The translations under genes and the position numbers were made by a program. Shown here one piece after another: positions 1-33,227 of a stretch of DNA of 44,998 bases; the stretch's first letter is position 1, and every line of letters starts with the position of its first letter. Source of the stretch: Methanobacteriota archaeon (GTDB lineage Archaea > Thermoplasmatota > Thermoplasmata > RBG-16-68-12 > JAFNFQ01); assembly GCA_017885655.1 (NCBI GenBank), contig JAFNFQ010000083.1, forward strand, positions 1-44,998. The letters are read 5' to 3'. Below the pieces are notes generated by a model. The model ran no database searches, was not told the origin of the DNA, and saw nothing but the letters and a program-made list of their open reading frames with translations.

Positions 1-689
1 TCGGGTCGTCCGGACCCCCGTTCGGACCTCTGACTGCTCAAAATGCCTGTCCGCGGACTGCGGAGAGTCTTCCGCAGGTCGCGGAAGGTTGTCCGCAAGC
101 CGCGGACAGTCGTCCGCAAGCAGGTTTTGACTGTCTTCAGGTAGCCATGGATCGTGCGGAATGCCGTGCGGGTCGTCTGAGGAGTCCCGCCAAAGGTCTG
201 GCAAATCGCACTGAGTGTTTGATAATTTGCGGCAACTGCCCGAATAATAACTTAGGTCTGCCCGAGAGTCAGACTGACTGTGTGAGATGGCCCGCAATCA
301 GCGCCGTTCACTTGGCCTCCGCCCCCTGGCCACACTGATACTCGATATGATGTGGATCACTCCCCCCCTGGACTTCTGTTGATGATCGAGGTCTGGGACG
401 GCTTGGCGACGAGTTGGCTATATCTCAGTCAAAGAAGATTGCGGGGTCGTGATGGGATACGCCGTCAATTTATTCCCCGCAAGTGTCAGCTCCGGCGCCG
501 CACCGGCTCCCATGTAGACATAGATAGGCGCGAAAAGCGACCTCCTCTCAGGGGATTGGATTCCTTGGCGGCTTCCCGCTGTCAATTCTCTTCCACATCG
601 TCCATCTGCTTTCCTGCACGGCCCATACGGCGGTAATCCCGATTCCCGCCACACATCGGGTTGTGGTGGTGGGCGACATCGAGATTTAA
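1..689. other. Intergenic stretch, no gene recognised
   Basis: I find no protein that I recognise in this stretch on either strand. The short open frames have no ribosome-binding site, no domain signature and no typical amino-acid composition. The first 120 bases hold a cluster of small GC-rich inverted repeats, listed separately. The rest is of mixed composition and more AT-rich than the flanking genes. It ends in the promoter region of the Kelch gene that begins at 846. It could contain decayed coding sequence, but nothing in it can be assigned. Confidence 0.5.
49..120. repeat. Cluster of short GC-rich hairpins with a shared CCGC/GCGG core
   Basis: Several perfect inverted repeats lie head to tail: the palindrome GTCCGCGGAC (49-58); TGCGGA (59-64) against TCCGCA (71-76); CTTCCGC (69-75) against GCGGAAG (81-87) with a 5-base loop; and TGTCCGC (90-96) against GCGGACA (102-108) with a 5-base loop. 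GTCCGCAAG is also directly repeated at 91-99 and 112-120. The second and third hairpins overlap, so they could be alternative structures. The function is unknown. A terminator region, a protein-binding array or a remnant of a mobile repeat are all possible. Confidence 0.6.
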
Positions 690-716
690 CACTTAGAAGG
701 GTGCACCACAAACTAT
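690..716 (+). promoter_or_regulatory. Shared upstream element, copy 1
   Basis: The pattern is CACTTAGA, three variable bases, GTGCACCACAAAC, one variable base, then AT. The same pattern occurs at 5611-5637 before the paralogous gene. It lies about 50 bases upstream of the TATA-like box and 130 bases before the start codon. The ACCACA core (705-710) is matched by an inverted TGTGGT at 662-667. I infer a binding site for an activator or repressor common to the two genes. Confidence 0.55.
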
Positions 717-767
717 TTCCAACCCCCTTGGAATCCTTGAACTAAGACCAAGGCCTTTCACGAACCG

Positions 768-777
768 TTAAATACGT
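768..777 (+). promoter_or_regulatory. TATA-like box of the first Kelch gene
   Basis: The AT-rich box GTTAAATACG stands in GC-rich surroundings, about 70 bases before the ATG at 846. Initiation about 25 bases downstream would give a leader of roughly 45 bases ending in GGGGAGGA (831-838), a good ribosome-binding site with a 7-base spacer. Confidence 0.5.
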
Positions 778-845
778 TCGGCAACATGAAAGGCGGGAGT
801 CCCGAGAACACAGCTATGCTGTGGAGAACAGGGGAGGACTAGGAC

Positions 846-3800
846 ATGTTGAGCAAGAAGAGTGTGAGTGCGATAGCGATAACAGCCTTTATGCTGCTGT
901 CGTCTGCGATGATGTTCATATCGCAGAAGGCGGACGCAGCCTCTTGGCTGACGACGACGGATACCGATTTCGCTCCCGGGAACTTCTTCACCGGCACCGG
1001 TTTCGAGTCCGTGTTGCACGGTACGGGAGCAGCCGCATATATTCAGAATAAAATGGGCATGATGAACTGGATCCAGAAGAACCCTGACACGAATACGGGC
1101 CCCAGATCACAGTTCGGTTTTACGAACGATTCTCAGGAAAGCCGTTTCATCTTATTCGGAGGCCTGGCCGGCAGCCAGTGGCGCAACGATACATGGGAGT
1201 ACAACTATGCCGCCCAGAACTGGGAACAGATATGTTCCGACAACACTCCTGCATGCGCACCTCCTAAGAGGATAGCCCCCTCGATGGCGTATGACAACAA
1301 CAGCAAGGTCGCGGTCATGTACGGCGGTGTGGACGACCAGGGCAATGGCCTCAGTGACACTTGGGAATATGACGTCAGCACCAACACGTGGACCAACAGG
1401 ACCGCGCCCATCTCGCCGCGCGGGATGATGGCGCACAAGTTGGTCTATGACGCCAAGGACAAGAGAGTGATCCTCGTCGGCCGCGGCGTCGCCGCGATGG
1501 AGGTCTGGGAGTACAACGCCGCCACGCACGTTTGGGCAAACAAGAACGCGATTGGCGGCCCGTCGCAGAGAGGGAGCTTCGCCCTTGGGTACAGTTACCA
1601 AGCCAACCACCAGAGAGTGGTCCTATTCGGCGGCGCGGAATTCACGACCTCTTACGACGAGACATGGGAGTACAACTACGCCTCGAGCAGCTGGTCGCAG
1701 GTCAGCCCTGCGGACAAGCCGACCGCCCGCTACGGTTCCTCGATGACATACAACCTCAAGCAGTCGATTGAAGGATTGATCCTCTGGGGCGGGAGCTCAT
1801 GGTCGACTGAGACGTGGAGGTATAACTGGACAGGCAGCACCCCGACATGGACTCAGATCCAGACCACCACGACCCCGAACCCGGGAAGGACGAACCACGG
1901 CCTCGCCTACGACCCCGGCTACAATGCCCTGATGATCTATGGCGGCGAGCCCTTTACCGGCCCGAAACTCAACGACACCTGGATGCTGGAGACAGGCTAC
2001 AACCTCGAGGGGCGGTACTACTCGAAGTTCTTCAACACGTTCGTGACCGCCACGCAGTGGCAGTACATATTCTTCAACAAGACGAGCGAGCCGAACACGC
2101 AGGTCAGGTTCCAGGTCGAGGCGAACAACGTCTGTGACAACGCGGCCCTCCCATCCTTCAAGGGACCCCTCGGATTACCCAACACTTACTACACAACCTC
2201 GGGGGAGGCTCTGTGGAGCGGGCTATTAGGGAACAAATGCCTACGGTGGTTGGCCGACATGATCACTTTTGTCCCGTCCGTGGCTCCGCAGTTGCAGGAT
2301 GTGACGATAATCTATGATGCGGGCATAATCAAGCCGCAGGTGGATACCGTATCTCCGACGGGTGCCGGCCACCCGATCAACTCGCACATCTACATCAATT
2401 TCACGAAGCCGGTGGACACGTTCAACACTTGGGTGTACGTCTGGCAGGTTCTTGGACCGGTGAACATTACCCTGGACCCGTTCATATGGACAGAGGCGAA
2501 CAGCAAAGTCGAGATCACTCACAACTCACAGCCCTTCCTGGAGGCACACGCATACAGGGTTCGCGTCTACGCCGCTGATACGCTGGGGCAGTCCCTCAAT
2601 TATACATTGGGCTACTACCAATGGGCCTTCACAACGATCAGCATACCTCCCCAGATAATGAGCACCGTGCCGGAAGCCAACGCCGAGGATGTGGGGCTAG
2701 CGGCCCCGGTCGTCATAACATTCAGCGAGCCGATGAATACCGCCACATGCTGGCCTTATGTCACGATCGACCCTGTGACACCGGAGACGCTCGCCTTTGA
2801 CGGGCACTCTTGGAGCGGGGGGGACATGGTGCTGACCCTGACGCATTCGGTGCAGTACCAGCAGTTCACAGTCTACACGATTGACGTGCCAATAGGGAAC
2901 GCGACAAGACCGTGTCAGGATAAATCCGACATCTTGCTGACCTACGGGCCGACGGCGGTGCCGTGGTCGTTCACGACCTTGGCGCTCAACCCGTTCATCA
3001 CGTTGACGGACCCGAGGGACCAGCTGCCGGAAATCCCCGTAGCCAAGGACATAAAGACGACCTTCAGCAAGGACATGGACCATAGCAATTTCTACTACGC
3101 CTTCAAGGAGTGGGACCAGGCGACCCTATCCTGGAAGAACTGGACTGGGACGTTCAACGCACCTTCCTGGTCCGGCAGGTCGGTGACGCTCAGCCACACG
3201 ACGGCGTTCACGTACTGCAAGCCTTACAGGGTGGAGATGTGGGCATTGAACCTGACGGGCAAACCCCTAATTCCGAACCCAGCTGTGCCGAACCCGTGGA
3301 AGTTCATGACCGTGGGGGCCAGCGGCGCTTGCGGCCCGTTCCTGATGCATACCACGCCGTTCGACGGCGAGCAGAATGTCCCGATATGGAAGAACGTAAC
3401 CCTCTACTTCTACTACAGCCCGCCGGACACGGGTGGCATGAACCCAACCTCTTTCACGTTCTCATTCAAGGATCAATGGAACAGCGAACTGTCGGGCCAA
3501 TTCACGCTGAACTGGCTCGGCATGGGACCTAACGCAGTGGAGCTGTTGCACCCATCGTACCCGCTCGACCCCTGTCAGGAATACACCGTGAAGGTGTTGA
3601 CGGCCAGGGACAACTCCGGACGGCCCTTCATACCCGGGATGGCCATAAATCCGTTCAAATTCAAGACGGTCACAACGGATTGTCGGCCGGCCATGATCTG
3701 GACACAACCTGCCAACGGGACCCTGAACACCCCAATCGACCAACCCCTCGTTTTGAAGTTCAGCGAGCAGATGAATACGGCGTCATTGGTCGTGACCCCC

Positions 3801-5459
3801 CGGCCGACTGTCACGCTGAATGCGCCCGTCTGGACCGAGGGCGACACGAATGTGTCAATCACGCACAGCTCATTCACCATATGTACTTGGTACAATGTAT
3901 CCGTATTCGCGAAGAACCCGGCGGATATGAACATCGGACGTGGGCCTGTGCCGAACCCGTTCATGTTCCGGACATTCTGTCCGCCGTCCGGCACATACAT
4001 CACCGTAACCTATCCAGCAAACGGTCAGACGGGCATCCCGTTGACGGCATCGATCTGGGTGAACTTCAGCGACCCGATGGACACGGCGAGCCTGACGTTC
4101 ACTTTGCAGCCGGGAACATTCACCTTCAGTCAATTCTGGAGCAACGGTGACATGACTGTCAGGCTGGATCACACTACACCATACGCCCAAGGCACGGTGT
4201 ACACCGCACGCGTGGTCACTGCCCGCAACAAGACCGGTGGCAACATTATCCCCGGTGGAGCGCCCAACCCATGGACCTTCAGAACATACGCTCCGCCACC
4301 TTACATCGTCACCACGATACCTCCAGACGGAGCATCAGGCGTCCTGCTCGATGCAACGATAACGGTCATCTTCAGTGTACCGATGGATCAGACTTCCGTG
4401 ACCTTCGCCACGAGCCCGGCGCTCACATACTCGCAGCAATGGACCAACGGCCAGACGGTGGTCTTCAGCCACTCGACGCCATTCAACCTCTGCACCCCCT
4501 ACACGGCCACGGTCCTCGACGCAAGGGACCCAAGCGGCACCCACCTCGGACCCGGACCGGTCCCGAACCCGTGGATCTTCACTACCGATTGCAGATTCCC
4601 GGTGAGGGGCTTGAAGGTGACGAGGCAGGCGCCGAACGTGCGGCTGGACTGGACAGGCGATGTCCAAGTGCAATTCTGGAACGTCTTCACCGCAAACGAC
4701 AGGCTGACACCGTGGCCATGGACCATGATTGCCAACATCACAACGCCAAGCAACAACTTCTACATCCACACCAACGCGATCAGCGATATGCAAAACCACT
4801 TCTACATCGTCCGCGGCTACAAGCCCGGCGGGTGGAGCAGCAACAGCACCATGGGCGCGCTGTGGCACCCGACGCTTGCGCCGAACGGCGGCAGGCCAAG
4901 CGCGTTTTGGTTCAGCCTCCCGTATAACTCGATGTACAAGAAGGCCAAGGACATCTCTGACGAGCTGACCTACCTGAAGATAAACGTCGTGGCCAAGTTC
5001 GATTCGGCGAAGCAGCAGACGGTGGTCTGGTACTACTCGCACGGAGTGTGGCGCGGCACCAACTTCAACATCGCGGCGGGCGAGGGGATGATGATAGGCG
5101 TCATCAGCAACTTCGACTGGGCGATCAACGGCACGGACAAGGTAATCTCGATGACGTTCACGTTCAGATCGCACCTGCGCACCAATATCTACTGGATAAG
5201 CCTGCCATACACGAACGGTCTAGCTAGTGCCAGCGGGCTCGTGACAGCGATCGCGGGCGGGACCGGACCCGGAACGAATACGAAGATAATCGCCGTGGGC
5301 AAGTGGGTCTACGCGACCCAGTCGAGCCGGGTGTACCGCTACGCGGTGTCGGGCTGGAGCGGGGACGACTTCAACATCGTGCCTGGCGACGGGATATGGA
5401 TCGAGGTCATGTCGTCGTTCGCATGGAACCTGACGCTGATCACGCCGGAAGTCCCGTAA
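846..5459 (+). CDS. Secreted Kelch-repeat protein with Big_5/SbsA-type Ig domains
   Basis: This 1537-residue exported protein has an N-terminal signal peptide (basic MLSKK, hydrophobic core, likely cleavage after ADAA near residue 32). Residues about 95-385 hold six Kelch blades with recurring GG...DTWEY...W motifs (for example FGGLAGSQWRNDTWEYNY), which should form a beta propeller. After a linker come seven Ig-like domains of the SbsA/Big_5 type, each opening with 'P..G....P....I.V.FS.PMDT', up to about residue 1240. A degenerate FN3-like domain follows. The C-terminal 200 residues contain two copies of a 'WFSLPY...W....F.I.PG.G.WI' module. There is no C-terminal membrane helix, so it is probably released or attached non-covalently. 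The start is fixed by GGGGAGGA at 831-838. A paralogue with the same layout follows at 5760. Adhesion or glycan binding is plausible but unproven. Confidence 0.9.
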   Translation: MLSKKSVSAIAITAFMLLSSAMMFISQKADAASWLTTTDTDFAPGNFFTGTGFESVLHGTGAAAYIQNKMGMMNWIQKNPDTNTGPRSQFGFTNDSQESRFILFGGLAGSQWRNDTWEYNYAAQNWEQICSDNTPACAPPKRIAPSMAYDNNSKVAVMYGGVDDQGNGLSDTWEYDVSTNTWTNRTAPISPRGMMAHKLVYDAKDKRVILVGRGVAAMEVWEYNAATHVWANKNAIGGPSQRGSFALGYSYQANHQRVVLFGGAEFTTSYDETWEYNYASSSWSQVSPADKPTARYGSSMTYNLKQSIEGLILWGGSSWSTETWRYNWTGSTPTWTQIQTTTTPNPGRTNHGLAYDPGYNALMIYGGEPFTGPKLNDTWMLETGYNLEGRYYSKFFNTFVTATQWQYIFFNKTSEPNTQVRFQVEANNVCDNAALPSFKGPLGLPNTYYTTSGEALWSGLLGNKCLRWLADMITFVPSVAPQLQDVTIIYDAGIIKPQVDTVSPTGAGHPINSHIYINFTKPVDTFNTWVYVWQVLGPVNITLDPFIWTEANSKVEITHNSQPFLEAHAYRVRVYAADTLGQSLNYTLGYYQWAFTTISIPPQIMSTVPEANAEDVGLAAPVVITFSEPMNTATCWPYVTIDPVTPETLAFDGHSWSGGDMVLTLTHSVQYQQFTVYTIDVPIGNATRPCQDKSDILLTYGPTAVPWSFTTLALNPFITLTDPRDQLPEIPVAKDIKTTFSKDMDHSNFYYAFKEWDQATLSWKNWTGTFNAPSWSGRSVTLSHTTAFTYCKPYRVEMWALNLTGKPLIPNPAVPNPWKFMTVGASGACGPFLMHTTPFDGEQNVPIWKNVTLYFYYSPPDTGGMNPTSFTFSFKDQWNSELSGQFTLNWLGMGPNAVELLHPSYPLDPCQEYTVKVLTARDNSGRPFIPGMAINPFKFKTVTTDCRPAMIWTQPANGTLNTPIDQPLVLKFSEQMNTASLVVTPRPTVTLNAPVWTEGDTNVSITHSSFTICTWYNVSVFAKNPADMNIGRGPVPNPFMFRTFCPPSGTYITVTYPANGQTGIPLTASIWVNFSDPMDTASLTFTLQPGTFTFSQFWSNGDMTVRLDHTTPYAQGTVYTARVVTARNKTGGNIIPGGAPNPWTFRTYAPPPYIVTTIPPDGASGVLLDATITVIFSVPMDQTSVTFATSPALTYSQQWTNGQTVVFSHSTPFNLCTPYTATVLDARDPSGTHLGPGPVPNPWIFTTDCRFPVRGLKVTRQAPNVRLDWTGDVQVQFWNVFTANDRLTPWPWTMIANITTPSNNFYIHTNAISDMQNHFYIVRGYKPGGWSSNSTMGALWHPTLAPNGGRPSAFWFSLPYNSMYKKAKDISDELTYLKINVVAKFDSAKQQTVVWYYSHGVWRGTNFNIAAGEGMMIGVISNFDWAINGTDKVISMTFTFRSHLRTNIYWISLPYTNGLASASGLVTAIAGGTGPGTNTKIIAVGKWVYATQSSRVYRYAVSGWSGDDFNIVPGDGIWIEVMSSFAWNLTLITPEVP

Positions 5460-5470
5460 GAACGAACGAA

Positions 5471-5506
5471 CCGGGGCCCTCTCCAGGGTCCCGGACCTTT
5501 CAATTT
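5471..5506 (+). terminator. Hairpin followed by a T-rich tract
   Basis: CCGGGGCCCT (5471-5480) pairs with AGGGTCCCGG (5485-5494) around a CTCC loop, with one G-T wobble. T-rich sequence follows at 5498-5506. It begins 12 bases after the stop codon of the first Kelch gene and would end its transcript before the next promoter. Archaeal termination depends more on the T tract than on the hairpin, so the hairpin's role is inferred. Confidence 0.5.
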
Positions 5507-5610
5507 TCCATCACTCCTTTTCTAATCGAGCCTGTTCTCGCACCGGACAGCGTGGACTCTTGAATTCTCCACAGGAAACGTATGTGGTTCATCATTGAAC
5601 AGACCCACGT

Positions 5611-5637
5611 CACTTAGATTAGTGCACCACAAACGAT
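5611..5637 (+). promoter_or_regulatory. Shared upstream element, copy 2
   Basis: It matches the element at 690-716 at 23 of 27 positions, including the uninterrupted 13-base GTGCACCACAAAC. It lies 47 bases before the TATA-like box and 123 bases before the start at 5760. An inverted TGTGGT sits at 5583-5588, 43 bases before ACCACA at 5626-5631. This spacing equals that of copy 1. Confidence 0.55.
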
Positions 5638-5683
5638 ATTACTCTACTCCTCCTTCGCTTGTCTAGCGATGCAACCCGGAAAC

Positions 5684-5692
5684 CTTTAAGTA
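5684..5692 (+). promoter_or_regulatory. TATA-like box of the second Kelch gene
   Basis: CTTTAAGTA lies 76 bases upstream of the ATG at 5760, matching the arrangement of the first Kelch gene (box at 768-777, ATG at 846). This parallel supports both assignments. Confidence 0.45.
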
Positions 5693-5759
5693 ACATGGGT
5701 TCATGACAGGCCAAACCTCGCAATAGAACTTGTCCATAATGGAGAGGAGGCAAAAGAAC

Positions 5760-8700
5760 ATGGCTAGCAAGAAAGCGGTTAGATTTGTCGTAGTCGCGCT
5801 GACCTTTGCGTTCATGATGAGCGCTTTCGTCGTGATGATTTCACCCGTGGCGAAGGCGTCGCTGTGGACGCAGACGACCGAATCGGACTTCGGCGCGGCC
5901 ACAACTATGAACAATGTGAATGTGCAGGGCACGGGCAGCCCGGCATACGTGCAGTTGAACAAGACATTCTTTGGATGGGTCAACAAGAATCCCGCGGTCG
6001 CGCCATCCAAGCGGCAATCAGCCGCCTCATTCTTCGACACCGTGAACGGTAGGACGATGGTCATGGGCGGATTGGACGCAATGAGCGTCAACCTCAATGA
6101 CACGTGGGCCTACTACGCGGCAACGAACACGTGGACGAAACTGTCCAACAACGCGCCTTGGGCCGCAAGGTGGGGCAGCGGCGCCGCGTTTGACTCGACC
6201 CACGGCATCGGCGTTCTCTTCGGCGGATTTGACGCCAACGGCCAGAACTATGAGACATGGGAATACGCCGCCGCGACCGGCGTTTGGACCAACAGGACCG
6301 CCGCCGCCAAGCCGAGATTGACCAGCACTCCTCTCGATTTCGACAGCACCCAGGGGAAGGTATTGACCGCGGGCATGGGTGGAATCAACTGGGAGACTTG
6401 GGGGTACGACGTCACGACCCACATCTGGTCACAGAGGGCGGGCACGAACCCGCCGCAGAACAGGGGGGGTCAAAGCCTCGTTTACTATCCCCTCATATCC
6501 CGCACGGTGATGTACGGCGGGTCTTATCTCTTCACGACATGGGACGAAACCTGGGAGTACAACTATGCGACCGACTCATGGACGAACAAGACTGGCCAAA
6601 CCGGTGGTGCCAGTCCGGGCGGAAGGACCGGGCACGGCATCGTCTACAGGGCGACCCAGAACGACCTCATGCTCTATGGCGGTCAGCCCGGATATCCGAC
6701 CACCACGTACAGATATTGGGACAATGCCGGCCAGAGATATTGGGCGATGATTTCGACAGGCAGCAGCCCGTCTGGGCGCATAAACCTCGTGATGAGCTAC
6801 GACCCTGGGATAGCCTCCTCCGTGATCTTTAGTGGCAAAGACCAGGTAGGCAATAAGTTCAACGACACTTGGCAGTTCGAAGCCGGATACCAGCCGCAGG
6901 GAACGATGTCATCCGCTGTATTCGACAGCTATCATTCGAATACTATGTGGAAATACATCTTCTGGAACCAGACCCCGATCAATGTTCCCGCGGGCGGCAC
7001 GATAAGATTCTACCTCGCGACATGCAACAACCCCTACGACATCGGCTCACCCGGCCTTTGCGAGTGGAAAGGCCCGACCGGTGGGTCCTCGTACTATACC
7101 AGCCCTGGCGCCGCCATATGGGCCGGCGCATCACCTGCAAGATACATCGCGTACTACGTCCAGATCCTATGTGCCGCCTGCACGGATTCCCCGCATTTGG
7201 AGGATGTGTCGATCGAGCACACTGCTGCCTCAATCCCGCCAACGGTGGCGAGCACCTATCCCTGGGCTCAGGCCGGAGTGCCCGTAGGCTCGCAGATATG
7301 GATCAATTTCTCAGAACCCATGGATTTCAACCAAGTGATCGTCACGCTCAAGGATACCGCTACATGGACCGACTTCCCGTACAACAGCGTCTGGCAGAAC
7401 AATTCCGTGAACCTGATCATGACCCACTCTGGCACTCCATTCGATATTTGCACACAGTACAGGTATAACATAACCCAGGCGATCGACCTGGAAGGTCAGT
7501 CGATGGTCGGTCTGCCCAAGAGCTACGTCTTCTCGACGTACTGCCCCTTGCCGGAAATCACGCAGGTGTATCCCCATCTTGCTGATGTCGATATCCCACT
7601 GACATCCGCGATATATGTCAATTTCAGCAACCCGATGAACACAGGCATGATCGATGTGAACGTCACACCGCCGCTCCCTGATTCAAGCAACCAGTGGTCC
7701 AACGGCAACAAGAACCTCAAGGTCAGCCACGTGGCCTCCCTCGCGGACTGCGTGATATACACAGTCAATGTCAGCGGCATGGACGTCTACGGCCAGGGCC
7801 TCGTGCCCGCCTCTGTGCCGAATCCATGGTACTTCGAATCCCACTGCATGAACCCGAGGGTCACATCAACCAGCCCGAACGGAGGGTCGATAGAGGTGGC
7901 GGTCGACAAGGCGATCTCGATCACCTTCAGTCACAAGATGAGCCCGCCGACGGTGAACGTGGCATTCACCCCGTCCATAAGCCTGACCGCGTCGTGGAAC
8001 ACGCCGACGAACACCACGCTCACCCTCAATCACCCGCCGGCGTTCACCGCCTGCACGAAGTACACCATGAACGTGACCGGGCAGGACACCAGCGGCAACC
8101 ATATCCAGGGCGGCTACTACACCTTCTGGATCTTCACGACCTGCGGCGGTTCGCCTTTCGTCCTGCAGACCATGCCAATAGACGGATCGACTGATGTCGC
8201 CCTCGACCACGATGTGCAGTTCATATTCAACGAGGCGATGCAGCGCTCGACAGTCACGTACACGGTCTTCCCGCAGGACTGGACGTGGACGGTCGATTGG
8301 GTTGGGATGGACGCGATAATGATCTTGAATCACACATCAGACTTCACCGGGTGCGCGAGATATTACATCAATGTAACAGGCGGCAGGGACGTTGACGAGG
8401 GCAAGGATCTGGTCAACGGCCCGGTGCCGAACCACTTCCGCTTCGACAGCCTCTGCACAAACCCGTTCGTGAGGACATGGGTCCCGACGGACAATTCGGT
8501 TGACATACCCCGCAATCAGAATATCGTGATTACCTTCAGCAAGCCGATGAATACAGCCTCGTTCGGGTACAGCATCGACCCGCTGATCACTTTGGGCGAG
8601 GCGTGGACCAATGGCGACACGGTGTTCACATTGTCGCATGGCCCGCTGTTCACGAACTGCACGGACTACATTTTGAGGATCGGACTGGCCGACAGCAAGG

Positions 8701-10199
8701 ACGGCTACCCGCTCATCGGAGACCGCGAGCTGAACTTCAGGACGTTCTGTCCAGGCCCGAACCCGTTCATCGTCATAACAGATCCAGCCGATGGCACCAC
8801 CGACGTGGCCTTGGACAAGGTCGTGTTCGTACAGTTCAACAAGACGATGGACCGCGCGTCGTTTAGCGTTCAGGTCACCCCGATCACGCCGATGGCCCCG
8901 ACTTGGGGCGCGCTGGACATGTACCTCAACCTCTCGCATGCGCCGTTCCTAGAGGCGACCCTCTATACTATCACGATACACGCGTGCGACCTGTTCGCGC
9001 AGTGCCTAGTACCCGGCCCGGTGCCGAACCCGTGGTCCTTCACGACGACATCCACCAACCCGAAGATTATGACGACGGACCCCACGAATAACCAGCTGGA
9101 CGTCCCATTGACGAAGACTATCATCGTCAATTTCAACAAGGCGATGAACCAAGCTTCCGTCAACGAAATCGTCTCTCCGGGGGGCATATCGTTCACGAAA
9201 TCGTGGTCCAACGGCGACAAGACGCTGAGCCTTCTCCATGCTGTACCATTCCAGGCGTGCACTTTGTACACGGTGACAATAACCGGCCAGGACACGGTCG
9301 GCAATCCGCTCGTGGCAGGCCCTGTCCCGAACCCGTGGACGTTCACGACCACGTGCCTGCCTGCCGCCCCGCCCGGTCTGCAGGTGGCTCGCTCGGGCAA
9401 TGACATCGTCCTGACATGGCGGGCGTCGACTCTGGCGACCGGCTACTACGTGTACCGCGCGACTGACCGCTTTGCACCATGGCCATGGGCCCAGGTCGGC
9501 AACGTGACCGGCCTGACCTATACCGCCACGGGCGATAACGGCGACACTGTCAACCACTTCTACCTCGTCAGGGGCCGCAACGCCCTCTGGCTCGAGGGAC
9601 CGAACAGCTCGATGGGAGCGAGGATGTACAGGCAGTTCAGCCTCGCCTCCGGAGTCCCGAACTCGCAATGGTTCAGCCTGCCCTACCGCTCGACATACAC
9701 GAAGGCCAGCGACATCACCACCGAGCTCACCAACGCGAAGATCAACGTGGTCGCGAAGTGGGACGCGCGGAAGCAGACCACGATACTCTACTACTGGTTC
9801 CACAACGCCTGGCGCGGGCAGGACTTCAACATCCTCCCCGGCGACGGGCTGTATATCGGCCTGGTCACTTCCTTCGGCTGGTCGATCACCGGCACCGACA
9901 GCTCGACCGCACTGCAGTTCACGATGAACCCGCCATCCAAGACGAACTACAACTTCATATCCTTGCCCTACACCACTTCGTACACCAACGCCCAGTCGAT
10001 AACGAACGAGCTGACCTCGTCCAAGGTTGTCGAACTAGGGCATTGGGACCCGGCATCGCATGCCTGGCAGAAGTGGACGTACTCCGGTGGCACATGGACG
10101 GGACCGAACTTCGATATAATGCCCGGCGACGGGTTCTACATGGTGATAGCATCGGGCTTCACCTGGGCCCCGAAGCTGATCACGCCGGATGTTCCGTAG
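5760..10199 (+). CDS. Secreted Kelch-repeat protein with Big_5/SbsA-type Ig domains (paralogue)
   Basis: This 1479-residue paralogue of the gene at 846 has the same order: signal peptide (MASKKAVRF, hydrophobic core, cleavage near AKAS), six Kelch blades with GG...DTWEY signatures in the first third, seven Big_5-type Ig domains, an FN3-like domain, and a double C-terminal 'WFSLPY...PG.GFYM' module. There is no membrane anchor, and both proteins end in LITP(E/D)VP. I chose the ATG at 5760 because GGAGAGGAGG (5741-5750) lies 9 bases upstream; upstream in-frame TTG 5730 and ATG 5739 lack such a site. Each Ig domain carries asparagine-X-serine/threonine sequons, as expected of a glycosylated archaeal surface protein. 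It probably heads a transcript with the anchored proteins downstream, because only 16 bases separate it from the next gene. Confidence 0.9.
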   Translation: MASKKAVRFVVVALTFAFMMSAFVVMISPVAKASLWTQTTESDFGAATTMNNVNVQGTGSPAYVQLNKTFFGWVNKNPAVAPSKRQSAASFFDTVNGRTMVMGGLDAMSVNLNDTWAYYAATNTWTKLSNNAPWAARWGSGAAFDSTHGIGVLFGGFDANGQNYETWEYAAATGVWTNRTAAAKPRLTSTPLDFDSTQGKVLTAGMGGINWETWGYDVTTHIWSQRAGTNPPQNRGGQSLVYYPLISRTVMYGGSYLFTTWDETWEYNYATDSWTNKTGQTGGASPGGRTGHGIVYRATQNDLMLYGGQPGYPTTTYRYWDNAGQRYWAMISTGSSPSGRINLVMSYDPGIASSVIFSGKDQVGNKFNDTWQFEAGYQPQGTMSSAVFDSYHSNTMWKYIFWNQTPINVPAGGTIRFYLATCNNPYDIGSPGLCEWKGPTGGSSYYTSPGAAIWAGASPARYIAYYVQILCAACTDSPHLEDVSIEHTAASIPPTVASTYPWAQAGVPVGSQIWINFSEPMDFNQVIVTLKDTATWTDFPYNSVWQNNSVNLIMTHSGTPFDICTQYRYNITQAIDLEGQSMVGLPKSYVFSTYCPLPEITQVYPHLADVDIPLTSAIYVNFSNPMNTGMIDVNVTPPLPDSSNQWSNGNKNLKVSHVASLADCVIYTVNVSGMDVYGQGLVPASVPNPWYFESHCMNPRVTSTSPNGGSIEVAVDKAISITFSHKMSPPTVNVAFTPSISLTASWNTPTNTTLTLNHPPAFTACTKYTMNVTGQDTSGNHIQGGYYTFWIFTTCGGSPFVLQTMPIDGSTDVALDHDVQFIFNEAMQRSTVTYTVFPQDWTWTVDWVGMDAIMILNHTSDFTGCARYYINVTGGRDVDEGKDLVNGPVPNHFRFDSLCTNPFVRTWVPTDNSVDIPRNQNIVITFSKPMNTASFGYSIDPLITLGEAWTNGDTVFTLSHGPLFTNCTDYILRIGLADSKDGYPLIGDRELNFRTFCPGPNPFIVITDPADGTTDVALDKVVFVQFNKTMDRASFSVQVTPITPMAPTWGALDMYLNLSHAPFLEATLYTITIHACDLFAQCLVPGPVPNPWSFTTTSTNPKIMTTDPTNNQLDVPLTKTIIVNFNKAMNQASVNEIVSPGGISFTKSWSNGDKTLSLLHAVPFQACTLYTVTITGQDTVGNPLVAGPVPNPWTFTTTCLPAAPPGLQVARSGNDIVLTWRASTLATGYYVYRATDRFAPWPWAQVGNVTGLTYTATGDNGDTVNHFYLVRGRNALWLEGPNSSMGARMYRQFSLASGVPNSQWFSLPYRSTYTKASDITTELTNAKINVVAKWDARKQTTILYYWFHNAWRGQDFNILPGDGLYIGLVTSFGWSITGTDSSTALQFTMNPPSKTNYNFISLPYTTSYTNAQSITNELTSSKVVELGHWDPASHAWQKWTYSGGTWTGPNFDIMPGDGFYMVIASGFTWAPKLITPDVP

Positions 10200-10215
10200 G
10201 AGAGGAGGTAAGAAA

Positions 10216-12726
10216 ATGAGAAAAGAACTGAGCATAGCAATCGTGATTGGACTAGCGTTTGTGGCTCTGCAGGGGAACTTCGGGGTGAGTGCGCAGCCGC
10301 CATACCCCAACAAGATCATAACGGGATTGGTCGGGCCGGTAGCCGGGCTGAACGCACCGGTGAACTACAGCAACGCAGTGCTGTACCTCACCACGCAGGC
10401 GACCGGGACCGAACCGCTCGTGATCCAGAACAGGCTCAGCCTCGCGCCGCCCCCGCCAAACGCTGACTTCAGACCGGACTACGCGCAGGACATCGGCGGC
10501 GTCAACTACGACTGGAATGCAGTCACCGACACGGTCATGGCGATATTCGAAGTGCGCAGGGGAATGAACACATATGTCGGGATTAACTACACCGGCTCAA
10601 CCAAGGCGGTGCTGGACACCAACCTGATGCAGGAGCTTCCTGCGGTGAGCGTCGAGGCATACCCGACGCTGACGGTAACCAACCCCCCGAGCACGACCAC
10701 TCTGGACATCACGTGGACCGGGATGGCGGACCTGCCTGGGAACATCATGAGCTATGGCCTCCTCCAGTCGGTGAACGGCATGGCTGGCCCATTCACATGG
10801 ATTGCGGATGTGACTGCGGTTCCGGCCGGTGCAAACTCGCATTCGGTGACAGGGCTTGCAGACGGCACGTACTGCTACAAGATCAACGCGGAGTACAGGA
10901 GGAATGTCGCCGGCACGACTCTCAATGCAACGGTCGGCACGTCCGAGCCAAGCTGCCGGACACTTCTGACGCCTCTTGGGATCTTGAGCACGACACCCGC
11001 CAACAACGCCATCGACATCCCCTTGACAGACCCGATAACGGTTACCTTTAACAGGCCACCGGCGAGCCTACCCGCGATTTCGGCGGATGTCAAGTCGTTG
11101 GTCCCTCAGGGTCAGACAGTCACGACAGCCCCGTCATTGCTCGGCTCTGTCCTGACACTTGCCCACGCGGCGGATCCGTATATCGACTGTCGGGTTTACA
11201 AGGTGTGGATCAATGAGAGCGGAGTGCCTGTTCCGCCCACTGCCCCGGCCGTAAACCCTTGGACATTCACGGCACTTTGCCCGTTCCCGACCGTAGTACC
11301 CCCCACCCAGCCGGCGAGTGGTGAGGTCGGCGTGCCGCTGGACACGAACATAGTCATTACGTTCTCCAAGCAGATAAACACGGCGACATTTTTGGTGTCA
11401 ATCGCCCCCGTGATTACGCTGAACCTGCCATACACATGGAGTGTTGTTGACACTGTCGTCACGATAACCCACGCACCGTTCGATCATGACGTCCCGTACA
11501 CCTTCACGATAACGACGGCTGACGACATGAGCGGCAACCCGCTAACGGGAGCGCCATACTCATGGTCGTGGACCGCCAACAGCCCGCCTACGGTCACGGT
11601 CGACGCACCGACCGGCGGATGCTTCGCGCTGGCAGACGTTGTCCACATAGCGTGGACCCCGATGGATGACAAGACCGCTGTCAGCCTGCTGAACTTCGAC
11701 GTCAACTACAACGGCACGGTGAACGGCGACGTGACGTCCGGCCAGGGGATACCAACGAGCATCGATTGGACACATCCCACTACGTTGGATGCCACAGGCC
11801 TGATGATCAACGTCACCGCCACTGACGAGGCAGGAGCCTCCAGCTACGGATTGTCGGCAGCGTTCGACGTCGACTCGACGGCGCCGGAGATTGACAACTC
11901 AGGACCGACGGGTGCTCTGGGTTATGCGCATTACATCCACATCACGGTCAACTTCACTGAGGCGATGAACACAACATCTGTCGAAGCCGCAATAACGATT
12001 GCGCCGCTTGCGACGCTCGCATTCACGTGGTCGAATGGCGACAAGCAGGTGGACATCAACGTCACGGCCACGTCGGACACGCCCTACACCATAACTGTCG
12101 GAGTAGCGTCGAAGGACATTTGCGGCACCGGCAACGCGATGGCTATCGCGGGGAGCGTGGCCTTTTCCACGGGCCCGAGGAAGCCCATGAAGCCAGCCCT
12201 GGTCGGGTTCGCGGACTCGGACACGCAGATTACGCTGACCTGGGCCGCGATATCGCTCTTCGATGACCTCACACCGATCACGAGCGCGACGACGATCCAG
12301 TACGTGCTGTACAGAGACAACACCGAGATCAAGAGGACCGCGACCACGAGCTACCAGGACACGGGGCTGACAGCAAACACGCAGTACACCTATACCGTGA
12401 AGGTACTCGCGAACGGCACGACCTTGTCTGATGCATCCAACCCAGTGACCATCACGACGAAAGCGAAAACGACCATGGACTGGCTGCCGATAATCCTCAT
12501 CCTGATCATCGTGATAGTCGTGGTCGTGATTATCGCGGCACTCCTGATGAGGAAGAAGAAGCCCGAGGTCATGGAAGAGGCACCACCCGAGGAAGTCCCG
12601 GCAGAAGAGGCGCCACCGGAGGAAGCACCCACTGAAGGAGAGGCCCCGCCGGAAGGCGAGGCACCTCCCGAGGGAGAGACGCCACCGGAAGGAGAGGGCG
12701 GCGAAGAGTCGCCCCCTCCCGCCTAG
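10216..12726 (+). CDS. Membrane-anchored Ig/FN3-domain surface protein with acidic Pro-rich tail
   Basis: This 836-residue protein has a signal peptide (MRKELSIAIVIGLAFVALQG). The middle holds Ig-like domains, at least three with the Big_5 'ITVTF..P' opening, and one FN3-like domain near the C terminus. A single transmembrane helix (starting DWLPIILILIIVIVVV) is followed by MRKKK, which puts the tail in the cytoplasm. The tail is about 55 residues of repeated PPEE and PPEGE units. The ATG at 10216 is chosen because GAGGAGGT (10202-10209) lies 6 bases upstream, just past the stop codon of the Kelch gene; the upstream extension has no such support. The tight spacing implies cotranscription with the Kelch protein, so it may be its membrane partner. 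No enzyme motif is visible. Confidence 0.85.
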   Translation: MRKELSIAIVIGLAFVALQGNFGVSAQPPYPNKIITGLVGPVAGLNAPVNYSNAVLYLTTQATGTEPLVIQNRLSLAPPPPNADFRPDYAQDIGGVNYDWNAVTDTVMAIFEVRRGMNTYVGINYTGSTKAVLDTNLMQELPAVSVEAYPTLTVTNPPSTTTLDITWTGMADLPGNIMSYGLLQSVNGMAGPFTWIADVTAVPAGANSHSVTGLADGTYCYKINAEYRRNVAGTTLNATVGTSEPSCRTLLTPLGILSTTPANNAIDIPLTDPITVTFNRPPASLPAISADVKSLVPQGQTVTTAPSLLGSVLTLAHAADPYIDCRVYKVWINESGVPVPPTAPAVNPWTFTALCPFPTVVPPTQPASGEVGVPLDTNIVITFSKQINTATFLVSIAPVITLNLPYTWSVVDTVVTITHAPFDHDVPYTFTITTADDMSGNPLTGAPYSWSWTANSPPTVTVDAPTGGCFALADVVHIAWTPMDDKTAVSLLNFDVNYNGTVNGDVTSGQGIPTSIDWTHPTTLDATGLMINVTATDEAGASSYGLSAAFDVDSTAPEIDNSGPTGALGYAHYIHITVNFTEAMNTTSVEAAITIAPLATLAFTWSNGDKQVDINVTATSDTPYTITVGVASKDICGTGNAMAIAGSVAFSTGPRKPMKPALVGFADSDTQITLTWAAISLFDDLTPITSATTIQYVLYRDNTEIKRTATTSYQDTGLTANTQYTYTVKVLANGTTLSDASNPVTITTKAKTTMDWLPIILILIIVIVVVVIIAALLMRKKKPEVMEEAPPEEVPAEEAPPEEAPTEGEAPPEGEAPPEGETPPEGEGGEESPPPA

Positions 12727-12798
12727 ATACCTATAGACGCCGATACTAGGGTGGAAAGGGCTATATCTCCGACCGCGGGTGGAAAGAGCTCGCGGCAC

Positions 12799-15700
12799 AT
12801 GATAGAGCTAGCTCGCTCCAGGCCGGCAATAGGCAGAGTCGCTTGCGCAGCGATTGCGCTGCTCTTCCTCGCGGCGGCGGTGACCCTTCCTCCTGGCGCT
12901 TCGGGGCACATGCTCCCCGAGGCCGGGATCTTCTCGAGATACGTGCAGGGGCAGGTCACTGCGGACGGCAACATCACCGCAGCGGAATGGCAGGACGCGG
13001 CGGTCGTCGATCTTACCGCCATCCCCTTCAACACCGCGACCGCATACATGCTCGTCCGGAACAACGACACGATGCTCCACGTGGCCTACGACGTCACGAG
13101 CGACACGACGCAGGGGGTGAACGATGCCGCGGGCATCGCTTTCGACGGCGACCACAACGGAGCGCCGACGCCCCAGGGCGACGGCGAGTACAGCGTCAGG
13201 GCAAGCAATGACAGCGCATGCCTGCCGTTCGTCTCGGTCCGATGTCACTATGTCTACTCAGGTCCGGGTACCGCTTGGACACCACAGGACGCGATGGACC
13301 AGGCGCTTCCTTTCCATGGCGGGCTGTGGGCGGCGGTTGGTTTCGGTCCCTCGCAGAGGGAAGCCGCGCCGCACCGGATGTATGAGTTTTCCATCCCCCT
13401 TGCGTTGATCGGGCGACCGACCGCCGCGGTGAAGGCCGGGGACACCGTCGGTTTCTACGCCAGCCACCACAGCTCCCCGTTCGTCGGCGTCTGGGATGGG
13501 GACTCTTCGAGTACTGCGTCATGGCCCGACAACTCCCCCCTCGGGCCGAACGGCTACGGGCACCTGTACCTCGCTGCGCCGACTGGAGCCGCGCTCACGC
13601 CAGATTACTCTTACAAGCCCGCGAGCCAATCGCAGCCAGCCGTTCACCGCCTCAGTCTCAGGAACATGGGGCAGAGCCCGGACAGTTTCGACCTGGCCGC
13701 AACTCCGGGCCTCGGATGGACCGTGGAGCTGAGGGACAACCTCGGCGTCCTCCTGACGAACCATGGCGGGAATGCGACGCTCCCCGATGTGGGCCCCCTC
13801 CTTCCGGGCGCGGACACCTCGATCGTCGTGACGGTCATCCCGCCGCCGAGCGCGCTCCCGGGCGCCATTGACGAGATGTCTCTCGAGGTCCGGCCCTGGT
13901 CCGACGAGTCGAGGACAGCAGCGACGATATTGCGGTCAACCACGCCGATTCCTGCACCATGGTCCGACGATATGGAGGGCGGCGCGCCAGGGTGGCACGT
14001 GCTCTCCCGTCCGGTGAACGATTGGCAGCTCGGGACGCCGAGCGTGACCTTCCCCACTGGGCCGACAACGGCGCATTCGGGCACGAACGTGTGGGGCACG
14101 AACTTGGCGGGGAACTACAGCCTGAGCAGCTTCTCGATCCTGGAGACACCCCAGGTCCGCATCCCCGACTATATTTCCAGCGCGCACCTGGTCTTCTGGC
14201 ACTGGTACAGGATCATAGGCGGCTACGGGGACGGCGCGTGGGTGGAGGCGAGCTCCGATGGCGGGGACTGGGCTTTGATTCCGCCAGAGGCCGGCTACCC
14301 CGCCCAGCGGCTCGGCGGAAAGCCCGCGTACGCGGGGGCGAGCGGCGCCTGGGTCATGGCAGACTTCAACCTCACGTCCTTTGCGGGACATTCGGTGGCG
14401 TTCCGCTTCATCCTGTGGGACTGGCTCGCCAACGGTGTCACGGCAGGCTGGTACATCGACGACGTGACGGTCCAGGCCTCGCTCCCTGCAGCCGGACTGC
14501 GCCTCACGCCGCCGACAGGTTTCATGGCCGGCTCCAAGCTCGATTCCCTCAAGCTCAATCTCACGATACAGAACGTAGGGAGCTCGGACGACGTGTTCGA
14601 CCTCTCGTACAGTCAGCTGCTCGGATGGAACGTATCGTTCCTCGATCAGTTCGGCGTGCCACTCGACGACACCGAGCGGCCCAGGGACGGTTTCGTCGAC
14701 ACCGGGCTCGTGACCTCGGGCGGCCATGTCGAAGTCACCATCAACGTCACCATACCCGCGAGCGCGACCCCCGGCGAGATCGAGTCGGTGACTGTCGTCT
14801 TCCGCTCGAGCCTGGACATAGGAGTCTCGGCGAACGGGCAGTACAAGTTCCAGCTGGCCACGCCTTTACCCTACCTCGACGACGTGGAGTCGGGGGTAGC
14901 CGGTTGGGTGGCAGCCCCTGGCTCTCTCTGGCACCAGGTGAACAGTTGCCAGCCAAGCCCTCCGGCGTGGTTCATCTCCTACAGCCCCTGCCACAGCTGG
15001 TGGTACGGGCAGGACATGAAGGGCAACTACGCGACGGGGGCGAGGACCTATGGCAACCTCACCTCCCCGCCGATAGAGCTCTTCAACGTCTCCGTGGCGC
15101 ACCTGAGCTTCCGCTACTGGTACGAGACCGAGCCCACGGTGCAGTACGACCAGCGTTGGATCATGATCAGGATGGACAACGGCCAGTGGCCGGGCAAGGG
15201 GCAGGCAGGATCGTATCAGATGGGGCTGTTCTTCGACAAGACGTGGCTGGCGGCGAGCCTCGACCTCTCCTCTTTCATCGGGCACATCGTCCAGGTTAGG
15301 TTCTTCTTCGACAGCATAGACGCGCAGAACAACGCGCACCAGGGCTGGTACATCGACGACGTGAACGTGTCCGTCTATGTCCCAGGTTCGACACCACCGA
15401 ACATCGCGCTCACGAGGCCGGTCATGGGCGAGCGCTGGACGGCGGGGGTGCCGCAGGCGATAGTCTGGGATGCCTCGGACGATTCGGACCCCCCGAACGC
15501 ACTCAGGGTCTGGGTGAACTACTCGCAGACCGGATCGGCCCCGTGGACCCCGATACCGAACGCCCAGGCGGTGCGAGGCGATTCGTCACCCGTGACCTGG
15601 ACACCGCCTTGCGAGAATCTCACCGGCGTCGCGCTGAACGCGACAGTCGCCGACACATTCGGCCTTTTCAGCTGGTCAGGGCCGATCAGATTCGACCTGG

Positions 15701-17262
15701 ACTGCCGCAAGCCCGCCGTCGTGAGCAGCCAACCGAGGAGTCCGCCGGATGTCTCCGTGAAGACGAACGTGAGCGTTACCTTCAGCGAGGAGATGAACAC
15801 CACCGCGGCGCAGTCCGCCTTCAGCCTGAAGACGGTCCCCGGGTGGATGTCCGTCTCCGGGACATTCTCATGGGCCGGCAACACCATGTACTTCGTCCCC
15901 TCGAACGACCTCAGGGCGTCCACGGTCTACCAGGCGAACGTCTCGGTGTCCGCGACCGACGTCTCCCGTCCCGGAAACGGCCTAGCGGCGCTTTTCACGT
16001 GGCAGTTCACGACAAGCTCCCACGCCGACTCCCCTCCCGACATTTCGATCCAGACGCCGTCTGGCGGGGAAGATTGGTCGGGACACACTCCGACGAATCC
16101 TGACATCAGGAACATCGAGTGGTCCGTCTCGGACGATTTCGACCCTAAGGTCGCGCTGAAGGTATGGGTGAACTACACGACAGACAGCGGAGGCAGCTGG
16201 ACTCCGCTCACCCCCTTCCAACCCCTCAATGGCACAACCGCCAAGATTGCATGGGAGGTGCCGTGCGTCGATTCCGCGCAGGCCGCGATAGGCGTCGATG
16301 CGATCGACACCGGGGGCAAGAGGAGGTCGGTCGCGAGCCCCCTGTTCAAGATAGACTGCAGCCCGCCGACCATAATCAGCTACGAGCCGACAGGCTATGT
16401 CGTCCCTCCGGACGCGAAGGTGATGGTGGCCTTCAACGAAACGATGAACCAGGGGAAGGCGCAGGCGGCGTTCGACATGTGGAAGACTGCCGACATGATG
16501 CCAGTGGCGGGGTTCTTCTCCTGGGTCGGGTCGGTCATGACATTCGACCCATCCGTCGACCTGCTCCGTGGATCGACGTATCAGGTCCGGATAACCACCG
16601 ATGCCAGCGACGCCTCCAGTCCGGGGAACGCACTGCAGTCGGAGATAACATGGCAGTTCACTGTCGCGCAGGCACCGCCTCCCCGCGTCAGCACGACCGA
16701 TCCTGCGAACGGCACCGCGAACGTGCCAGTGGACCTGAGGATAATCACGATCACCTTCACCCCGAACACCACGTCCTTCCAGGGCGCGGTGAACATCACC
16801 CCCTACGTCAACTTCACGATGGAATCGCCCGTCGGCTCTTCCGTCATCATCGTCCACATCTGGAAGAAGCTTGAACTCGGCACTCGCTACCGCATCAGGT
16901 TGAACGCCTCTCTCATCCTCGACGACCTGAACAACCATCTCGACGGCAACGGCGACGGGGCAGGCGGCGACGACTATTCATTCACGTTCACCACGGCGTC
17001 TAGCGAGCCACCGGTGGAGAACGGGGTCCCTTCGTGGATCTGGGCCATCCCGCTGGCGGCGATTGGCTTCGTTGTCCCGCTGGCGGCATACGTCTGGCGG
17101 AGGAAGAGGAAGGAGAAGAGGAGACGGAGGCGGCGGGAGAGAAAGGCAACCTCCGTTTACAGGGAGACCATAGGGCCTGACAGGAGGATGGCGGGAGAGG
17201 AGGCGTCCGTTGAGAAAGAGGAGGAGACGGTCAGTGACGCTTCCCTGCGCCCTCCCTTCTGA
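12799..17262 (+). CDS. Membrane-anchored multidomain surface protein (CBM9-like, MAM-like, Ig-like domains)
   Basis: This protein of about 1487 residues has a signal peptide (IGRVACAAIALLFLAAAVTL). The first 200 residues, with 'GNITAAEWQDAA', resemble CBM9/DOMON-type carbohydrate-binding domains. Two blocks opening 'DD(M/V)E.G..GW' and ending 'GWYIDDV(T/N)V' look like MAM/immune-inhibitor-A type modules, each preceded by a NEW3-like stretch with 'G.....FDL......GW.V'. Big_5-like Ig domains with 'VTFSEEMNTT' fill the rest. A transmembrane helix (IWAIPLAAIGFVVPLAAYVW) is followed by a strongly basic run and a short mixed tail. A GTG at 12751 is an alternative start; I prefer ATG 12799 because it gives a normal signal peptide. 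The 3' end overlaps the convergent NMD3 gene by 32 bases. The ligand is unknown; polysaccharide binding is an inference from the N-terminal domain. Confidence 0.8.
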   Translation: MIELARSRPAIGRVACAAIALLFLAAAVTLPPGASGHMLPEAGIFSRYVQGQVTADGNITAAEWQDAAVVDLTAIPFNTATAYMLVRNNDTMLHVAYDVTSDTTQGVNDAAGIAFDGDHNGAPTPQGDGEYSVRASNDSACLPFVSVRCHYVYSGPGTAWTPQDAMDQALPFHGGLWAAVGFGPSQREAAPHRMYEFSIPLALIGRPTAAVKAGDTVGFYASHHSSPFVGVWDGDSSSTASWPDNSPLGPNGYGHLYLAAPTGAALTPDYSYKPASQSQPAVHRLSLRNMGQSPDSFDLAATPGLGWTVELRDNLGVLLTNHGGNATLPDVGPLLPGADTSIVVTVIPPPSALPGAIDEMSLEVRPWSDESRTAATILRSTTPIPAPWSDDMEGGAPGWHVLSRPVNDWQLGTPSVTFPTGPTTAHSGTNVWGTNLAGNYSLSSFSILETPQVRIPDYISSAHLVFWHWYRIIGGYGDGAWVEASSDGGDWALIPPEAGYPAQRLGGKPAYAGASGAWVMADFNLTSFAGHSVAFRFILWDWLANGVTAGWYIDDVTVQASLPAAGLRLTPPTGFMAGSKLDSLKLNLTIQNVGSSDDVFDLSYSQLLGWNVSFLDQFGVPLDDTERPRDGFVDTGLVTSGGHVEVTINVTIPASATPGEIESVTVVFRSSLDIGVSANGQYKFQLATPLPYLDDVESGVAGWVAAPGSLWHQVNSCQPSPPAWFISYSPCHSWWYGQDMKGNYATGARTYGNLTSPPIELFNVSVAHLSFRYWYETEPTVQYDQRWIMIRMDNGQWPGKGQAGSYQMGLFFDKTWLAASLDLSSFIGHIVQVRFFFDSIDAQNNAHQGWYIDDVNVSVYVPGSTPPNIALTRPVMGERWTAGVPQAIVWDASDDSDPPNALRVWVNYSQTGSAPWTPIPNAQAVRGDSSPVTWTPPCENLTGVALNATVADTFGLFSWSGPIRFDLDCRKPAVVSSQPRSPPDVSVKTNVSVTFSEEMNTTAAQSAFSLKTVPGWMSVSGTFSWAGNTMYFVPSNDLRASTVYQANVSVSATDVSRPGNGLAALFTWQFTTSSHADSPPDISIQTPSGGEDWSGHTPTNPDIRNIEWSVSDDFDPKVALKVWVNYTTDSGGSWTPLTPFQPLNGTTAKIAWEVPCVDSAQAAIGVDAIDTGGKRRSVASPLFKIDCSPPTIISYEPTGYVVPPDAKVMVAFNETMNQGKAQAAFDMWKTADMMPVAGFFSWVGSVMTFDPSVDLLRGSTYQVRITTDASDASSPGNALQSEITWQFTVAQAPPPRVSTTDPANGTANVPVDLRIITITFTPNTTSFQGAVNITPYVNFTMESPVGSSVIIVHIWKKLELGTRYRIRLNASLILDDLNNHLDGNGDGAGGDDYSFTFTTASSEPPVENGVPSWIWAIPLAAIGFVVPLAAYVWRRKRKEKRRRRRRERKATSVYRETIGPDRRMAGEEASVEKEEETVSDASLRPPF

Positions 17263-18271
17263 GCATCGAGACGAATGACTCGTTGTCCGCTTTCACTATC
17301 TGCACCTTCGCGGGCTCGCCCAGGTTCGGCGGCCTCGGCACCTTAGCGTTCCTCGCTTCGGCGGGGTCGAAGTACTCGACCTCCTTGTCCGAAATCGAGA
17401 TCACTTCGGTTTCGAAGCGTTCCGATTCGACGACCCTGCCCCTCTCCATCTTCGTCCCCGTCGGCGACAATCTCTCCCCGCTCTTCAGGTCCCTGAGCAC
17501 CGGCCGCTGCCCCATGGAGACGACCTCGAACATCCTGCCCTCCATGCGCACGACGTCGCCCTCCCTGTACCGGGGCAGCCTGACGAGGTGCGTGGTCCTA
17601 TAGATCTCCTTGCCGTCCTTGAGTCCGAAGAGCTTCGGAGACACGCCGACCGTGCCGCCATACTTCGCCCTGATCCCCTTCGCGATGTTCCTCCCCAGGT
17701 CGTGGCTGCTGAGGTAGATGTCGACTCCGCCCTTCACCGGCTCCATCTTCGAGATGAACGCCTCGCCCTTCGAGGCGGCGCGTTCCACGATGCGCTCCGT
17801 GAACCCGACGGTTTCGTCGATTTCTTCGTCGGAAAGCCGCCTCTCGTCCGCCCTGATTTGCAGTATAGCTTCGTAGTAGAACCCGGCCTTCCTCCCGCAG
17901 GTGGGGCAGGCGCCGCCGTGCACCCTGAGCCTCGTGCGGAAGTCCTTCACGAGGTCAAGGTCATCCACCTTGAGCACCGCCTTGACGGTGACCAGGAGGT
18001 TTCGCTCGTCCTCCTGCCTGACGTCGAATGTGAACGTCCGGAACGTCACCTCCCTGGCGGTGCGCACGTTCTTCTCGAGCAGGCGGAGGATCGCCCCTTC
18101 GATGTCAGTCTCCACCCACGCCTTGCCGACCTGGAGCTTGGAGCACTGGACGCACTTCACGACATCAATTGTCCCGGGCGGCTCGATCAGCTCGTGACGC
18201 TTGAGGAAGCAGTTGGGGCACAGCCCCTGTATCGTCTTGACCGTCGCGCCGCACTCGACGCAGAAGCTCAT
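17231..18271 (-). CDS. nmd3: NMD3-family ribosome biogenesis protein
   Basis: The 346-residue protein opens with MSFCVECGATV and has paired cysteines typical of archaeal NMD3: CVEC, CPNC, CVQC and CPTC within the first 155 residues, expected to bind zinc. In eukaryotes NMD3 is the 60S-subunit export adaptor; archaeal homologues have the zinc and beta domains and are thought to act in large-subunit assembly. The C terminus lacks the export-signal region of the eukaryotic protein, as usual in archaea. The ATG at 18271 follows GAGGCGA. It lies 53 bases after the DUF424 gene on the same strand. Its end overlaps the convergent surface-protein gene by 32 bases. Confidence 0.9.
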   Translation of the reverse strand: MSFCVECGATVKTIQGLCPNCFLKRHELIEPPGTIDVVKCVQCSKLQVGKAWVETDIEGAILRLLEKNVRTAREVTFRTFTFDVRQEDERNLLVTVKAVLKVDDLDLVKDFRTRLRVHGGACPTCGRKAGFYYEAILQIRADERRLSDEEIDETVGFTERIVERAASKGEAFISKMEPVKGGVDIYLSSHDLGRNIAKGIRAKYGGTVGVSPKLFGLKDGKEIYRTTHLVRLPRYREGDVVRMEGRMFEVVSMGQRPVLRDLKSGERLSPTGTKMERGRVVESERFETEVISISDKEVEYFDPAEARNAKVPRPPNLGEPAKVQIVKADNESFVSMLRREGAGKRH

Positions 18272-18324
18272 GTCGCCTCGAAAAAGGCCGGCGCCCTCTT
18301 AACCTTGCCGCCAATCTAGGATTG

Positions 18325-18615: not shown

Positions 18616-18660
18616 TCTTATCGTGGGCGGTGTCTCCGCCCTGAGGATGCGCTTCCGAGC

Positions 18661-18670
18661 TCATATATTT
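18661..18670 (-). promoter_or_regulatory. TATA box before the DUF424 gene
   Basis: Read on the minus strand the box is AAATATATGA, in the gap between the MCM stop (18707) and the DUF424 start (18615). Its position 46 bases before the start codon is normal. It suggests that DUF424 and NMD3 can be transcribed apart from MCM. Confidence 0.5.
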
Positions 18671-18706
18671 GTCCGAACGGCTTTCGCTCGCGGTAATCAA
18701 CGGCAT

Positions 18707-21295: not shown

Positions 21296-21418
21296 TCTCG
21301 CGCCCCCGGGCTCTCGCGTCGATGTCGCACCTCCTCGTGAGTACATAACGTTTGTAACGAGTCTTCCCGTGGACTCCGCCCTACCATAGAGTAAAGGTGG
21401 AGTCGTTTCCACTGGAGA

Positions 21419-21738: not shown

Positions 21739-21781
21739 TTGAGGGATGCTTGTAGCAGCATGCCCCAAGGAGGGTGAGACG

Positions 21782-26238: not shown

Positions 26239-26278
26239 CGGGGGCTGTGCTCCGTTCCGGCGAGGAGGCTCTGGAGCA

Positions 26279-33225: not shown

Positions 33226-33227
33226 GC

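Follow-up and report, generated by a model that had tools for sequence, protein, structure and literature searches.

In the archaeal DNA analyzed here (the whole stretch of 44,998 nt, called the window) two genes, whose long exported products contain a Kelch propeller as well as Big_5 domains, are preceded by the same sequence element. Judging from the comparison with related genomes, this is a promoter element which, within an order of uncultured archaea, is almost confined to the Kelch/Big_5 family, and one putative protein probably turns on the genes of this family as a group. The earlier note had described the element as CACTTAGA-N3-GTGCACCACAAAC-N-AT at positions 690–716 and 5611–5637, and we found it at both places with 23 of 27 positions identical. 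The features of the locus are listed in Table 1.

Table 1. Coordinates of the element copies, associated promoter sequences and genes in the window
Feature	Position	Strand	Remarks
Element copy 1	690–719	+	CACTTAGA, GTGCACCACAAAC, TATTTC; rank 2 by foreign-trained matrix
Parts of copy 1	693–719		TTNGA box 693–697; GTGCACCACAAAC 701–713; weak TATA-register stretch TATTTC 714–719
Element copy 2	5611–5641	+	CACTTAGA, GTGCACCACAAAC, GATATTA; rank 4 by foreign-trained matrix
Parts of copy 2	5614–5641		TTNGA box 5614–5618; GTGCACCACAAAC 5622–5634; weak TATA-register stretch GATATTA 5635–5641
Inverted TGTGGT upstream of copy 1	662–667	+	probably not part of the element; not conserved
Inverted TGTGGT upstream of copy 2	5583–5588	+	probably not part of the element; not conserved
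Second BRE/TATA, Kelch gene 1	760–774	+	ACGAACCGTTAAATA; anchor +57; 86 bp before ATG; 8.0 bits
Second BRE/TATA, Kelch gene 2	5678–5692	+	GGAAACCTTTAAGTA; anchor +54; 82 bp before ATG; 12.7 bits
Kelch gene 1	846–5459	+	1537 aa; N-terminal hydrophobic segment, Kelch propeller, Big_5 domains
Kelch gene 2	5760–10199	+	Kelch plus Big_5; ATG at 5760; first gene of probable operon
Big_5/fn3 protein	10189–12726	+	overlaps end of Kelch gene 2; probably co-transcribed
Big_5/MAM-like protein	12751–17262	+	24 bp behind Big_5/fn3 gene; probably same operon
Conserved-synteny neighbours of the Kelch array	17231–21412 and 32766–35015		NMD3, DUF424, MCM, T2SSE-type ATPase

We searched the window for a third match to the 21 specified bases with at most three mismatches and found none, with none expected from 100 shuffles. 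Applying the full pattern genome-wide (2.5 Mb, at most three mismatches) we obtained these two matches only, and none with the reversed pattern as control; GTGCACCACAAAC alone is uninformative at this threshold (10 found, 10.8 expected). The surrounding sequence is dissimilar, as had been noted before: aligned in register, the two regions share 31% identity over 100 bp upstream and 20% over about 120 bp downstream, which is the random level, so that the upstream regions cannot be regarded as a recent duplicate of each other. We also rejected an RNA element: Rfam gave no match in 1–6000, and the position of the element is at the core promoter or upstream of it.

Among 100 related genomes the full element was found in one further genome (G015), which belongs to another family of the same order. 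This copy (CACTTAGAAGAGTGCACCACAAAG) matches 20 of 21 bases, lies between two genes of the Kelch/Big_5 type and is located 159 bp from the ATG, compared to 156 and 149 bp for the window copies. We collected Kelch-domain homologues, seven of them from the own genome and full-length ones from several relatives, and read 24 upstream regions. A looser form of the element, TTNGA-N5-YGNACCASAAAC-TATTW, is present in 15 of these: five in the own genome (the window pair and three paralogues), the near-identical copy in G015 and nine in five other genomes (G034, G013, G019, G004 and G006). The 15 sites come from five families (f1 to f5) and should not be read as 15 independent lineages, since three of the source genomes fall into one genus. 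In their alignment the core carries 1.58 bits per column, compared to 0.2 in the flanks, which is the level of small-sample noise. Across families the Kelch proteins are only about 30–38% identical, yet the sites are kept. Two of the seven own Kelch promoters are without the element and one has a weak version only; the site on C64 is weak and reaches rank 19 with the matrix described below. Upstream of a distant homologue (SG225.bin14, L164) we saw no element; the sequence ahead of the match appears to be coding there. Kelch genes are located beside NMD3, DUF424, MCM and a type II/IV secretion ATPase in G004 (f5) as well as in G013 (f4), and beside NMD3 in G034; from this synteny some of the compared promoters are probably orthologous and kept at one place across families. 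The main refuting conditions named in the earlier note thus did not apply: the element is conserved beyond its own family within this Thermoplasmatota order, and its retention at homologous promoters together with its virtual absence elsewhere supports the view that it is under selection.

For specificity we trained a matrix on the nine promoters of other genomes and scanned 1.03 Mb of the own genome on both strands (about 2 million positions). The four best sites (C73d, 691, C73a and 5612, in this order) all belong to own Kelch promoters and score 25.0–28.4 bits, while the next best site reaches 19.4 bits, more than 5 bits lower. The training sites had first been picked by eye for their resemblance, a concern that is answered by de novo EM discovery: given only the relatives' upstream regions, with the near-identical G015 copy excluded, the procedure found the same motif unprompted, with a log-likelihood of 147 compared to 83–88 for shuffles, and at each of the widths 15, 22 and 29 this motif came out best. 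In a model search of 38 whole genomes, for which the E-values are rough, the top nine matches were all Kelch promoters. Beyond the order we observed no excess over chance, as weak matches occur in 22 genomes of other orders where about 21–25 are expected (E 0.1, 250 genomes of the class).

The idea of a regulon of surface proteins holds for the Kelch/Big_5 family, which shares the element, but not for exported genes in general: we observed no enrichment among 70 non-Kelch exported genes compared to 260 other genes (P = 0.48), with gene starts and exported status taken from simple scripts rather than curated annotation. Weaker matches also precede exported genes for Big_5 proteins (G015 and G012), an own S8 protease, NosD-like and PKD proteins, with E-values at chance level except for the Big_5 pair. 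In this pair AGAAGRGTGNACCAGAAATTACTTG precedes orthologous exported non-Kelch Big_5 proteins (L078 and L068, near 1500–1530); the two sites are near-identical and convincing. A further member is possible on own contig C11, where a weak copy (ACTTCGATATCGATACCAAAAACATTTAA; L100, 2211–2239) precedes the gene of a subtilisin-like exported protease.

Next, we compared the element with the general promoter of the own genome. As derived from 372 upstream regions, this promoter reads GAAAA-gC-TTTATA and is located some 70 bp ahead of the start codon; it contains neither ACCA nor TTNGA, and no conserved sequence was found further upstream of it in these regions. The element as a general promoter feature was rejected by this motif and by the matrix scan. 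The EM procedure aligned SAAAC-TATTW with GAAAGCTTTTAA and GAAAGGAATAAG from relatives' promoters without the ACCA form, and the 3' part has the layout of an archaeal core promoter, a purine/A-rich BRE directly before an AT-rich TATA. From this alignment and the general motif, the right end SAAAC-TATTW lies in the BRE/TATA register and TTNGA-N5-YGNACCA is a family-specific addition outside it. The TTNGA and YGNACCA boxes are about one helical turn apart, a spacing compatible with one protein on one face of the DNA. In their own register the BRE/TATA sequences are weak: they score −1.5 to 8.2 bits, and 13 of the 15 fall below the genome median best score of 7.1, with a matrix built from the own genome (G000) only and thus approximate for the relatives.

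No core promoter above 2.7 bits follows the element in 10 of the 15 promoters, and C73d and G006C28 have moderate downstream scores. The earlier note had placed a TATA box about 50 bp downstream, and this stands for both window copies (ACGAACCGTTAAAT at 760–773 and GGAAACCTTTAAGT at 5678–5691; scores in Table 1) but not for most members, because there the 3' end is itself in the BRE/TATA register and no better core follows; in most members the site and a weak core promoter are thus fused into one. A separate architecture is found in the window pair and G015, with a good BRE/TATA at +54 to +60 from the anchor, 82 to 86 bp before the ATG.

On the basis of these patterns we consider it fairly probable that we are dealing with a family-specific activating promoter element. 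A putative DNA-binding activator would sit on TTNGA-N5-YGNACCA beside the BRE and recruit TFB and TBP to the poor BRE/TATA (SAAAC-TATTW), and thereby the Kelch/Big_5 surface-protein genes would be switched on together. Weak BRE/TATA sequences in the own register are what is expected of activator-dependent promoters. In the window pair and G015 the element would either activate the second promoter from upstream or itself be the first promoter of a tandem pair. Given the stronger BRE/TATA downstream, the upstream copy of the window pair could also be a mere relic, which is disfavoured because 20 of 21 bases are kept in G015.

Known archaeal activators bind directly upstream of the BRE and help TFB or TBP onto weak elements (PMC5512572, PMC4390858, PMC5937170). 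Both features are found here, a conserved sequence directly upstream of the BRE and outside the general promoter as well as a weak BRE/TATA beneath, and the anatomy is therefore likely to be of the EarA/GvpE/TFB-RF1 kind. In Methanococcus maripaludis the fla (archaellum) operon is preceded by four 6-bp sites for EarA, an activator presumed to help recruit TFB (PMC5512572); these short conserved sites likewise lie immediately upstream of a weak BRE and serve a surface-structure operon, whereas the Kelch element is a single bipartite site of other sequence. The UAS of the leucine-zipper-like GvpE in haloarchaeal gas-vesicle promoters is also bipartite and adjacent to the BRE, to which it needs a close distance, but consists of two 8-nt parts 4 nt apart in a divergent promoter pair (PMC4390858); TTNGA and YGNACCA do not have this format, as they differ in length and composition. 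In Pyrococcus furiosus the TFB-RF1 motif (TCTGAANTTCAGA) precedes pf1089 and pf1011 (PMC5937170). Common to it and the Kelch element are a constant distance to the weak BRE with TATA that follows, the conservation across related species and the very small number of targets. The TFB-RF1 motif is, however, a palindrome, whereas the Kelch element is not palindromic, and no TCTG-N5-CAGA was found in the 15-site alignment.

The main rival to an activator, although in our estimation an unlikely one, is an extended BRE, in which one TFB paralogue reads YGNACCASAAAC, perhaps with TTNGA, directly and no separate activator takes part. The ACCA adjoins the BRE register, and genomes of the order have about 2 to 7 TFB genes (about five here, with two TFIIB repeats each). 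However, TTNGA is located about 17–21 bp before TATA, and the usual contact of TFB reaches less far. We give still less credence to the specific version in which a dedicated TFB paralogue reads YGNACCASAAAC plus TTNGA and the promoters form a distinct class of the order that sets apart a family of large surface proteins. A repressor operator, at which binding to ACCASAAAC-TATTW would block TBP and TFB, is improbable: the site does overlap BRE/TATA in most members, but a weak BRE/TATA beneath it suits an activator better, and the strong BRE/TATA about 50 bp downstream in the window pair and G015 is too far away for simple occlusion. That the paralogues just kept an ancestral BRE/TATA with no special regulator would agree with the homology of the genes and the register of the 3' half; we regard this as very improbable, as ACCA and TTNGA lie outside the general promoter, ACCA shows stronger conservation than the TATA part, and the sites persist across families despite the low identity of the proteins.

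The looped or cooperative operator of the earlier note, in which an inverted TGTGGT would form a half-site four turns further upstream, is largely refuted and hardly credible: TGTGGT does start 43 bases before ACCACA at both window copies (a same-register inverted 6-mer in 0 of 20 000 shuffles, for a feature picked after the fact), but it is in register in 2 of the 15 promoters only, and is absent from 12 others and from the G015 copy (0 of 6 bases), where the main element is kept. TGTGGT may have been added locally in the window pair.

With respect to the locus, Kelch gene 2 heads a probable three-gene operon ending at 17262. We found no conserved regulator or DNA-binding gene beside the Kelch loci, the syntenic neighbours being those named above. 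Several further observations concern this DNA. Upstream of Kelch gene 1 an imperfect 29-nt inverted repeat lies at 47–109 in a stretch rich in GTCCGCGGAC-like repeats. The MCM helicase gene (18707–21412, minus strand) contains an in-frame intein-like splicing domain (Pfam PF14890, residues 445–596). At 21746–31561 two very large proteins are encoded that combine NosD/beta-helix with many fn3 repeats; together with the adjacent secretion ATPase and T2SSF genes (32766–36923) they form a surface/secretion locus. On own contig C73 (L037, 3167–3196 and 12264–12340) two tandem Kelch genes end almost identically, including the CATTAGAATTCCGGACC that follows, and only one copy continues into ACCAGAAAACTTAAA, which looks like recent recombination or gene conversion in this array.

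The number of known archaeal activators and activator sites is very small, and we found no paper on promoter elements of this uncultured Thermoplasmatota group or its Kelch proteins. By its anatomy the element is likely a further case of an archaeal activator-type site adjacent to the BRE, with a sequence other than those of the three compared here. It offers a clean case for weighing TFB paralogues against separate activators as choosers of promoters; if a TFB paralogue does define the class, control would be exerted by exchanging a basal transcription factor and would be tied to a defined DNA code. At the same time, a motif of 29 bp that marks out one family of giant surface proteins across several archaeal families is a bait for its regulator.
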